The notes beneath the pieces are model-generated. The model had not been told where the DNA came from, searched no databases, and saw nothing but the letters and a program-made list of their open reading frames with translations. A stretch of 64,000 nt of DNA from Bacteroidales bacterium (GTDB lineage: Bacteria; Bacteroidota; Bacteroidia; Bacteroidales; P3), in contig JAGBJI010000009.1 in assembly GCA_017934545.1 (NCBI GenBank), positions 62,001 to 126,000 on the forward strand, given 5' to 3'. Below are positions 14,932 to 18,216 of this stretch, one piece after another. A program made the position numbers and the translations under genes. Within the stretch, counting starts at the first letter, position 1, and every line of letters starts with the position of its first letter.

Positions 14932-15801
14932 CTACAAGTCTTTGTCGGATAGTTCAAAGGTATTGCCCTTGGACATATCGCCCGTTGTCAAGCCGAGTTT
15001 CAACCATTTCATTCTCTGTGCAGAGGTTCCGTGCGTAAAACTCTCGGGTTGCGAATAGCCTCTTGCCTTTTCCTGCAAATAGTTGTCGCCTATCACTTGG
15101 GCGCAGTTTACGGCTTCCTGTATGTCGCCGTCGTCAAGGGAGTGGAACATCTTGTTTTCGTAATGCCCCCATATGCCTGCATAAAAATCAGCCAACAATT
15201 CCAACCGCACGCTTATCTTATTGGCTTGGGTTTTGTTGACCCTCTGCATCTGCGAATGTGCTTGCTCAAGCGTACCCAACAGATACTCAACGTGATGCCC
15301 TACTTCGTGGGCGATAACATACGCATAGGCAAAGTCCCCGTCGGCACCTAACTGCGATTTCATCTGCATGAAAAACGACAAATCTATATAAAGGCATTGG
15401 TCGGCCGAACAATAAAACGGTCCGACAGACGCATCGCCTTGTCCGCAAGAGGTTTGAACGCTGTTGGTGTACAAAACCATCTTGGGCGGAACGTATTTTC
15501 TGCCCATAGATTTAAAAACTTCAGTCCATATGTCTTCCGTTGAGGCAAGCACTTGCTTGGAAAATTTAGCCAACTGCTGTTCCTGCTCGGTAAATTGATG
15601 TTCACTCTGCGTTTGTTCTGTCTGCAACGAACTCAAACCGCCCGATTGCTGAATAACACTTAAAGGGTTGCCGCCCATAATCCATGTCAACAACGCCAAA
15701 ACTATAACTCCCACGCCGCCGCCTATTCCTGCTTTGGTTTTCGTAGACATTCCCCTGCGGTCGTCAACATTGCTGCTTTCTCTTCTGCCTGTTAAATCCA
15801 T
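14932..15801 (-). CDS. Neutral zinc metallopeptidase (YpfJ family)
   Basis: The 289-residue protein has one N-terminal membrane anchor (GIGGGVGVIVLALLTWIMGG, about 25-45) after a short basic cytoplasmic segment, then a periplasmic peptidase domain. The zinc motif is HEVGHHVEYLLG (HExxH, near 166), followed by the third-ligand region LELLADFYAGIWGH near 205 and the family's C-terminal FTHGTSAQRMKWLKLG segment. This matches the putative neutral zinc metallopeptidases of the YpfJ/KPN_00944 type, whose substrates are unknown. The protein is about the size of E. coli YpfJ. Repeat copy C separates it from the sigma-barrel gene. Confidence 0.9.
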   Translation of the reverse strand: MDLTGRRESSNVDDRRGMSTKTKAGIGGGVGVIVLALLTWIMGGNPLSVIQQSGGLSSLQTEQTQSEHQFTEQEQQLAKFSKQVLASTEDIWTEVFKSMGRKYVPPKMVLYTNSVQTSCGQGDASVGPFYCSADQCLYIDLSFFMQMKSQLGADGDFAYAYVIAHEVGHHVEYLLGTLEQAHSQMQRVNKTQANKISVRLELLADFYAGIWGHYENKMFHSLDDGDIQEAVNCAQVIGDNYLQEKARGYSQPESFTHGTSAQRMKWLKLGLTTGDMSKGNTFELSDKDL

Positions 15802-16100: not shown

Positions 16101-17615
16101 TTAAAATTTTATCCTTATACCGACGGGCAATTCCGCACAGAGTTTGTGTTGTTTGCGGTATGACTGCACTTTGTCGCCGTTGTCAAAGAAATAAACAACT
16201 TGCGGTTCAATGAATATGCCCGCTCTGTCGGTTATCCTGTACTCTATGCCAAGCGAAACGCCTAAAGACACTTGGTCTGCGGCGTTTAAGTCCGACTTTA
16301 CGCTTTTTCCCTCTGCATAAAGTTCGGCTTTATCATATACAGGCACCTCAAAACCAACGCCCGCAGATGTATAAACGTTAAAAAAACGGTTTGCCGTGCA
16401 GTGATACGCCACAGCAAGCCTGATGCCTGCGTATTGCAGGCGGTAAGTCAACAAAGCATCAGAGTAGGACATAAATTCCGTTTTCATATACGTGTAATTA
16501 AAACCGCACTGTGCCGAAAATTTTCCGTTAATAGGCTTTTCAAGCATAACCGACAGTGTTACAGGGCGGTGATATTTGGTTTTTGCAGCATAAAATCCGC
16601 TTTCACCGGGCATAAACCCCGGCATACGTCCCGCAAACGACGGAAAACCGCCTATATCTATAATATTGTCATAGTCCGTAGGCATATTGCCGTATGCATC
16701 TGTGTTAAAATCCGCCATCAACGCCCATCGGCTTTGTTTTTTTGTGCGTTCGGCATATGTTTTTTGCAATATATCTTCCGTTTTTTGCAGTGGTTTTATT
16801 TTGTTTTCCGATTTTATTAACGTGTCTTTTACTTTTTCTTCGGTGTTTGCATATTTTATTACAGTGTCTTGTAATTTTACATCTTGGTTTTGTGCATTAT
16901 CAACACTGTTTTGCGTAAATGCAGCAAAATTATAGCCTGATAAATTCTTTTGTTTATCGGTTGTTTTAAATTTTACAGGTATTTGTTTATGAGTAACGGC
17001 GGTTTGACCCGCTTGCTGCGGCGGTTTACTGACGTATGTATCCGTATTGCCGTGAAAAAATGAAAATACTGTTGCAGCAATCAGCACCACGCCCGCCGCA
17101 CACAACGTCCAATAGGAATGAATCATGGATTGCAACGCCTTTTTTGCACGGTGCAACTGCGACGAAGAGGTTTTGGCGGAGATATTCAGTTGCTTGGCTA
17201 TCTGATTATGCGACAATCCGTCAAAAGTATAGAGTTTAAACACTTTTTTGCTGCCCTCGGGCAAGCGTTCAACCATCTGCATTATGTCGTCATAGGCTAT
17301 CTGCGGCCTTTCATTGCCGTTTTCACTGTCAGAAAGCCCTGCATTGATTTCGTCTTTTACGGTTATACCCTCAAACAACTTCTTTTTCTCAACATATTTC
17401 AGACATGTATTCCGTGCAATTGAGAACATCCACTTCTCAAGTTTGCTTTTGTCCTTGAGAGTATCTATTTTGGTCAGAACCACTACGAACGAATCCTGTA
17501 CCAAATCTTCCGCTGCGGCTGCATCGGCAACGTATTTCATACATAAACCGAACATACGTTTGTAGTACATTCGGTAAATGTTTTCAAATTCCTGCCTGTC
17601 AAAACCGTCAGCCAT
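16101..17615 (-). CDS. ECF sigma factor - membrane helix - outer-membrane beta-barrel fusion
   Basis: One uninterrupted frame of 504 residues joins three modules. Residues about 10-76 are sigma region 2 (FENIYRMYYKRMFGLCMKYV, AEDLVQDSFVVVL, KWMFSIARNTCLKYV). Residues about 107-162 are sigma region 4 (YDDIMQMVERLPEGSKKVF, LSHNQIAKQLNISAKT, SSSQLHRAKKALQ). Right after this comes a transmembrane helix at 167-188 (SYWTLCAAGVVLIAATVFSF), then a polar linker of about 105 residues. Residues about 296-504 form a beta-barrel-like domain (LLTYRLQYAGIRLAVAY, FFNVYTSAGVGFEV, AGIFIEPQVVYFF) ending in Phe, as BAM substrates do. In this phylum ECF sigma factors are normally separate from the barrel or anti-sigma genes. 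No anti-sigma gene is visible nearby. It lies 4 bases after the lipoprotein gene. Confidence 0.88.
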   Translation of the reverse strand: MADGFDRQEFENIYRMYYKRMFGLCMKYVADAAAAEDLVQDSFVVVLTKIDTLKDKSKLEKWMFSIARNTCLKYVEKKKLFEGITVKDEINAGLSDSENGNERPQIAYDDIMQMVERLPEGSKKVFKLYTFDGLSHNQIAKQLNISAKTSSSQLHRAKKALQSMIHSYWTLCAAGVVLIAATVFSFFHGNTDTYVSKPPQQAGQTAVTHKQIPVKFKTTDKQKNLSGYNFAAFTQNSVDNAQNQDVKLQDTVIKYANTEEKVKDTLIKSENKIKPLQKTEDILQKTYAERTKKQSRWALMADFNTDAYGNMPTDYDNIIDIGGFPSFAGRMPGFMPGESGFYAAKTKYHRPVTLSVMLEKPINGKFSAQCGFNYTYMKTEFMSYSDALLTYRLQYAGIRLAVAYHCTANRFFNVYTSAGVGFEVPVYDKAELYAEGKSVKSDLNAADQVSLGVSLGIEYRITDRAGIFIEPQVVYFFDNGDKVQSYRKQHKLCAELPVGIRIKF

Positions 17616-17619
17616 ACAT

Positions 17620-18042
17620 CTACATCGGCATGTTTGCCTTTAACGGAAATATTTTTAGGATTTCCGCCGTAAACTCCGTTTCTCCGCCGCCTTCGTGCAA
17701 GTTGCAATAAATATCAGCGGTCAATGTATCGCCGTCAGACAACAATTTTTTCACTGCACTCGGGTTACATACGGGATATTTGTACGTATTGCGGCTCCAA
17801 CAACCGCTTTCTTCAATGTTTACAACATAGTTCTCACCGTCTTTAACCAATTGCACGCTGAACAAAACGGTAGATTCTGGGTTTTGGGGGTCGGTATTTT
17901 TCAGCCAGACATGCTTTTGAACCGTCGGAGTGGAACACTGCCCGCAGTTGTCCCAATATTCGTCATCGCAAGCAAGGAATAGAACCGCACATATTGCCGC
18001 TACGGTCGAAAACAACGCCGCTTTAATCTTTACATTTTTCAT
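17620..18042 (-). CDS. Lipoprotein of unknown function next to the sigma-barrel gene
   Basis: A 140-residue product with a lipoprotein signal ending ALFLAC (lipid Cys25). The mature part has a cysteine-rich start (DDEYWDNCGQC) and a compact beta-rich body with further cysteines (ESGCWSRNTYKYPVC), suggesting disulphides. The stop is 4 bases before the sigma-barrel ATG, so the two are co-transcribed and probably translationally coupled. I infer it may be a sensory or regulatory partner of the fusion protein; no family was recognised. Confidence 0.72.
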   Translation of the reverse strand: MKNVKIKAALFSTVAAICAVLFLACDDEYWDNCGQCSTPTVQKHVWLKNTDPQNPESTVLFSVQLVKDGENYVVNIEESGCWSRNTYKYPVCNPSAVKKLLSDGDTLTADIYCNLHEGGGETEFTAEILKIFPLKANMPM

Positions 18043-18089: not shown

Positions 18090-18099
18090 TTACCGGTAA
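18090..18099. promoter_or_regulatory. Palindrome upstream of the lipoprotein/sigma-barrel operon
   Basis: Perfect palindrome TTACCGGTAA, 48 bases before the lipoprotein ATG and set in a near-palindromic context (GTTACCGGTAAGTAC). It is a candidate regulator site in the region where the operon promoter should lie. I see no clear TAnnTTTG box here, which would fit control by an alternative sigma factor. Confidence 0.35.
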
Positions 18100-18216
18100 G
18101 TACCCCAAAACCGTAAAATACTGCACCGTTTAATCAAAATTTTTGCGAAAAAGTTGTCACCCGACCGCAAAATAATATAAAAAACATCCGAATTACATAC
18201 CTTAATATATACATGT

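Follow-up and report, generated by a model that had tools for sequence, protein, structure and literature searches.

A Dma3-type fusion of an ECF sigma factor to a predicted outer-membrane barrel in a Bacteroidales bacterium, with a clade-specific promoter-like motif

The stretch of DNA analysed here, referred to below as the window, comprises 64,000 nucleotides of a Bacteroidales bacterium (assembly GCA_017934545.1, contig JAGBJI010000009.1) and carries on its minus strand, at 16101..17615, one gene for a protein of 504 residues in which an ECF sigma factor, a transmembrane (TM) helix, a disordered linker and a predicted eight-stranded beta-barrel follow one another. Pfam profiles place sigma region 2 (PF04542) at residues 13-79 (17379..17579, minus strand) and sigma region 4 (PF08281, r4_2) at residues 109-161 (17133..17291, minus strand), both above cut-off and together the two-region complement of the ECF (group 4) sigma factors. 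The best NCBIfam match, TIGR02985, falls under its cut-off, and the sigma part of a structure model yields fold matches to regions of sigmaE, SigW and SigR. In the model, a single continuous helix (residues 147-188) combines the DNA-recognition helix of region 4 with the TM helix (residues 169-187; 17055..17111, minus strand), such that the one would run directly into the other. A polar linker predicted to be disordered follows (residues 189-292, ~104 residues; 16740..17051, minus strand) and presumably crosses the periplasm. The last part of the protein (residues 298-504; 16104..16724, minus strand) is modelled as an eight-stranded barrel with matches to solved eight-stranded barrels over residues 291-504, suggesting an OmpA/OprF-like protein for which outer-membrane insertion is predicted. 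The model has a mean pLDDT of 69.9 and a pTM of 0.44, values at which the placing of domains relative to one another is not reliable. A first-pass annotation had proposed this order of domains within one frame and named structure prediction as a check; the Pfam matches and the model agree with it, and the C-terminal part is predicted to form a barrel rather than a soluble globular domain.

Only 4 nt separate the fused gene from a gene for a 140-aa Cys-rich lipoprotein (17620..18042, minus strand), presumably part of the same operon, and a promoter-like site, GCAGTATTTTACGGTTTTGGGGTACTTA, stands upstream of the two (18097..18124, minus strand). Residue Cys25 of the lipoprotein presumably bears the lipid and is followed by Asp-Asp-Glu; acidic residues after the lipidated Cys can mark surface export in Bacteroidota. 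The lipoprotein had no match over cut-off in Pfam or NCBIfam and none in a sequence search of the PDB, and kinship with NigD was considered and set aside, the model (pLDDT 66.8) yielding weak OB-fold-like matches with a best E of 0.059. Three of the genus's other 13 genomes have a homologue, which lies beside the fused gene in genomes G003 and G011 and is unlinked to it in G005. Downstream on the same strand lies a gene for a YpfJ-type neutral zinc metallopeptidase (14932-15801, minus strand); a conserved linkage was rejected, as this gene is absent beside the orthologues at loci L124-L126. A GNAT-type acetyltransferase is also encoded nearby, and none of these three neighbours has a sigma or anti-sigma match.

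The layout of the window protein aligns it with a family already described. The dual membrane-spanning anti-sigma (Dma) proteins Dma1 and Dma2 share with it, in the retrieved text of PMC13088901, a TM helix, a long disordered tether and a C-terminal beta-barrel, the barrel being model-based for the window protein; they differ in that their sigma factors, Das1 and Das2, are products of separate genes and in that an anti-sigma domain forms the N-terminus of the partner. As the segment presumed to be this domain was not found in the window protein, it is not a Dma anti-sigma factor in the strict sense. It does resemble Dma3 of Bacteroides thetaiotaomicron, described in the same source as a member of the family with the sigma factor at its N-terminus: both have an N-terminal sigma on a Dma-like protein and no adjacent cognate ECF21 sigma gene (definition from PMC13088901, as far as retrieved). 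One fused relative, at L033, has a weakly matching second ECF gene ~0.7 kb away. Judged by architecture, then, the window protein is probably a homologue of Dma3 and of a kind already in print, not a new class. The dma3 locus is bt_2778-2779 (Pardue et al. 2024, as cited in the retrieved text of PMC13088901), deleting it did not reverse the vesicle phenotype that dma1 or dma2 mutants show, and otherwise hardly anything has been reported about it (PMC13088901, 2026); unlike the system described here, Dma3 has little function and no promoter motif reported in that text.

Other precedents come from the remaining literature used for comparison (PMC8999054, PMC8103513 and PMC13114119, each retrieved in part). 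IutY of Pseudomonas putida (ECF243) likewise joins a sigma factor and a membrane domain in one protein, but its extension is an anti-sigma factor acting in iron-starvation surface signalling, and the retrieved text mentions no fused outer-membrane barrel. The actinobacterial groups ECF48, ECF52 and ECF53 have C-terminal extensions with TM helices from which proteolytic release is expected; theirs, in contrast, contain zinc-finger anti-sigma domains, again with no barrel mentioned in the retrieved text. The first-pass annotation implied that a membrane-tied ECF sigma was a novelty, and this does not survive the existence of Dma3 and of IutY, in which the sigma is freed by proteolysis; its anatomy and its idea of a single-protein trans-envelope switch stand. 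What appears to go beyond the literature, within the text retrieved, is the absence of an anti-sigma segment, the predicted fusion of recognition helix and membrane helix, and a motif specific to the clade. A search of the open-licence PMC literature by subject, not by motif letters, found neither the promoter motif, nor a small regulon, nor the missing segment.

Within the genus, re-reading of frames established a fused gene in 6 of 14 genomes. These include three full-length orthologues of the window gene (47% identical in G005, 41% in G003 and 37% in G011), a paralogue (L002) in the window's own genome with its counterpart in G007, and one further gene in G002; regions 2 and 4 of the window protein are 84% and 69% identical to those of G005. 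The full-length orthologues keep the same domain order in frames open from end to end, and neither of the outcomes that the first-pass annotation had named as fatal to its proposal (a stop or frameshift between residues 162 and 300, or a soluble C-terminal domain) was encountered. Wider searches scored 3 to 17 candidates per genome and so give lower bounds: a re-read fused gene in at least 15 of 190 genomes of the family; among 295 Bacteroidales genomes at E<=1e-50, an intact one in at least four and a frame-broken one in at least two; among 80 genomes of one related genus, at least two intact and at least one broken; and among 395 genomes of the phylum at least 120 with a match, of which the window's genome and G583 gave confirmed fused frames and G419 gave a broken one. 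Only re-read frames were counted as fused, and a long frame in G019 and a 607-aa frame in G536 stand outside these counts. Three further candidates were rejected on re-reading: a 591-aa frame in G536 contains an in-frame stop, after which a new start follows, and is thus a split pair, and the frames of 614 aa in G592 and G595 proved to be split as well. Named carriers include Segatella baroniae, Prevotella amnii, Prevotella conceptionensis and Alloprevotella rava. The fused gene at L025, on a contig filed under Roseburia, groups with Prevotella, and the contig is probably mis-binned. At L140 (2040-2400) and L182 the frame is broken in the linker, by natural variation or assembly error; the break at L140 lies near a run of seven A directly past the membrane helix.

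A script sorted 138 sigma ORFs into 39 fused, 80 split (a sigma gene followed directly by a TM-containing gene), 10 sigma-TM and 9 unclassed ORFs, the last mostly under the hydropathy threshold. When 136 distinct sigma domains were placed on a tree, a branch with an SH-aLRT support of 99 had all 39 fused sequences, the window's included, on the same side, together with the frame-broken L140, a grouping that fits a single origin for the joining of sigma and barrel. The tree is unrooted and compatible with either direction of the event, fusion or fission. Split Dma-type pairs were found across the phylum, and the barrel profile that matches the window protein also detects the barrels of many split partners in Bacteroidales. 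The sigma-TM proteins (L037, L047, L049, L050, L058, L064, L110, L113, L115 and L116) have 335-378 aa and hydrophobic stretches, most of them end in a 'DT[IV]Y'-like motif, and in five (L037, L047, L050, L058 and L064) a separate gene of ~300 aa follows directly. They were considered as a half-way form and discarded, their sigmas forming a separate branch of the tree.

Fused and split proteins differ just ahead of the membrane helix. Split partners open with a conserved stretch of ~45 residues, of a pattern like FxxKLxDxExxPPxxxWxxIxxxL, whose position and the published Dma layout suggest that it is the anti-sigma domain. A profile of this segment, built from 84 split partners, matches these and one more (85 of 85), and also all 24 of the split partners fetched later (E<=0.01). 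In fused proteins the profile search found no such segment between region 4 and the membrane: none of 25 was matched at E<=1e-3 (best E 5.1 over this set, which includes the window protein), nor were any of 9 further fused loci, of which two are frame-broken. Nine of the 10 sigma-TM proteins gave weak matches only, with a best E of 0.012. As the fused proteins lack the segment, the sigma factor stands where Dma proteins have their anti-sigma domain.

The fused genes also share a promoter-like motif, GCAGTCTTT-N12/13-CT[T/A]T, which stands either ahead of the fused gene itself or ahead of an abutting lipoprotein gene. The motif was first noticed by eye upstream of four close orthologues, as GCAGT[A/G]TTTT followed after ~12 bases by GTACTTA or a variant; six more loci were viewed by eye, and the motif was then cut by one T to GCAGT.TTT before testing. 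On the same strand and within 350 nt upstream, GCAGT.TTT occurs at 29 of 48 fused genes, several of which are near-copies, and all 29 sites fall at -44 to -70; the count is 28/44 without the four discovery loci and 25/41 when the three viewed fused loci are also left out. Corresponding values are 0/48 on the opposite strand, 4/75 upstream of split pairs (2 of 77 being left out for short flanks) and 3/154 before other ORFs of the fused loci, none of the last with a good second element by eye, against a background of 0.026 per 380 nt that includes the motif sites themselves. A second copy directly past the fused stop, as if driving the next gene, was found in 21/48; the 0/75 after the sigma stop of split pairs is an unfair control, because that stretch lies within the partner gene. 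Ten of the 19 fused genes without a nearby motif (the window, L125, L126, L014, L017, L018, L020, L021, L022 and L036) have one 509-1412 nt upstream, where ~3 would be expected by chance as estimated from the background rate, and all ten distant sites precede one or two lipoprotein-like genes abutting the fused gene. Of the other nine, seven have near variants judged by eye, and at L016 and L055 (2/48) no motif was recognisable.

The spacer is 12 or 13 in 41 of the 47 sites fitting a loose two-part pattern. A fuller pattern matches the window's whole genome twice, against no match for a reversed control, once at the window operon and once 3' of the paralogue, ahead of a methyltransferase-like ORF. 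Over six genomes of the genus the pattern is not clean everywhere (9 matches versus 6 for the reversed control), and its strict form has no match in the G003 and G011 genomes. Of the four matches in G005, one stands before the fused gene and two stand before unlinked genes whose Cys-rich lipoprotein products resemble the window's; the second of these two lipoproteins was not recovered by sequence search at E<=0.001.

Domain order, conservation, grouping on one branch, absence of the presumed anti-sigma segment and the clade-specific motif can all be read from sequence or model, and the reading that we favour, and hold to be rather likely, is of an autoregulated trans-envelope switch of the Dma3 type in which the sigma is tethered in place of an anti-sigma domain and would be activated by proteolytic release. 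The sigma would be held, via the inner-membrane helix and periplasmic linker, to an OmpA/OprF-like eight-stranded barrel in the outer membrane, and its silence would follow from the position of region 4, directly at the membrane without a spacer. A trigger at the barrel, which could be a ligand, damage, failed assembly or contact with the co-encoded lipoprotein, would change the barrel and expose the linker to a site-1 protease, whereupon an RseP-type site-2 protease would free the sigma. The freed sigma would then bring RNA polymerase to GCAGT[C/A]TTT-N12/13-CT[T/A]T promoters and induce its own operon and a few lipoprotein or other neighbouring genes. A precedent is offered by IutY, in which, according to the retrieved text, Prc and RseP release the fused sigma. 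The window's genome has M50 (RseP-type), Trypsin_2 (HtrA-type) and S41 (Prc-type) proteases, whose presence counts for little because the same families match in 14, 12 and 10 of 14 control genomes.

Alternatively, the intact protein may transcribe at the membrane, with movement of the barrel or tension on the linker freeing region 4 without cleavage. Membrane-bound regulators such as ToxR and CadC act from the membrane without being cut, and the retention of the fused layout over the whole clade may mean that the link is needed during activity and not for restraint alone. Region 4 is, however, joined to the membrane helix without a flexible spacer: the most hydrophobic 19-residue stretch starts 1-6 residues past the sigma profile match in 39 of 39 fused ORFs, although a few of these stretches are weakly hydrophobic (a hydropathy of 0.92 at L103, for example), and helix 147-188 is continuous in the model. 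This alternative appears unlikely. The first-pass annotation had listed proteolytic release, barrel movement and transcription at the membrane without choosing; on the present evidence the first of these is favoured over the third, short of proof.

A second alternative makes the protein a gauge of export or outer-membrane assembly, its sigma active in the cytoplasm while the rest awaits Sec or BAM and silenced once the barrel inserts. The sigma precedes the membrane helix and hence is made before export, and self-reporting of this kind would fit autoregulation. The genes seen beside fused genes or behind the motif are, however, not assembly factors but lipoproteins, a serpin (L023), radical-SAM proteins and methyltransferases, and we regard a gauge as quite improbable.

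Across the clade the neighbours of fused genes include other lipoproteins, serpins (L016 and L023) and a radical-SAM protein or methyltransferase. The serpin genes (L016:5510-8095 and L023:5645-6919) lie 6 and 60 nt downstream of their fused genes; at L023 a GCAGTCTTT site stands between the two, and at L016 no site was found. These neighbours hint that the barrels of some fused proteins may sense proteases. Radical-SAM/SPASM genes lie downstream at L025 (tested with Pfam) and, by eye, at L027, L028, L029, L127, L133 and L137, methyltransferase genes at L128 (tested with Pfam) and, by eye, at L055 and G000:C5 near 182048, and many of these genes stand behind a second GCAGTCTTT site.

Silencing of the fused sigma by a separate anti-sigma factor in trans, for example a split Dma partner, seems very unlikely. 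Split Dma-type pairs do occur over the phylum, and the dma3 locus is induced in B. thetaiotaomicron dma1 and dma2 mutants (retrieved text of PMC13088901), but the genes adjacent to the window gene encode no recognisable anti-sigma candidate. Finally, an assembly contamination value of 8.1, contigs that share matches at a constant offset and frame-broken copies in two relatives might point to gene decay or to an error of sequencing or assembly, an explanation to which we give hardly any credence, as the same full-length frame recurs in independent genomes, regions 2 and 4 are conserved in G005 to the extent given above, and the open frames of the orthologues rule out an artefactual or frameshift fusion. 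The contigs in question, C4 and C7 of G000, carry the same protease matches; the assembly probably holds a duplicated stretch, which may explain the contamination value.

The favoured reading, a tethered sigma activated by proteolytic release, can be taken a step further, to a view that we put forward tentatively and rate at slightly under an even chance: the sigma of this clade would have no anti-sigma factor of any kind, would be silenced solely by the weld of its recognition helix to the anchor and, once released, would drive a minimal regulon through GCAGTCTTT-type promoters, namely its own operon and a few genes for surface lipoproteins or modifying enzymes. With a cognate promoter and targets predicted, and with the claim that it lacks an anti-sigma domain, a Dma3-type system becomes testable with a reporter. 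If the sigma is indeed freed by cutting of its tether, a single protein would connect the cell surface with RNA polymerase.
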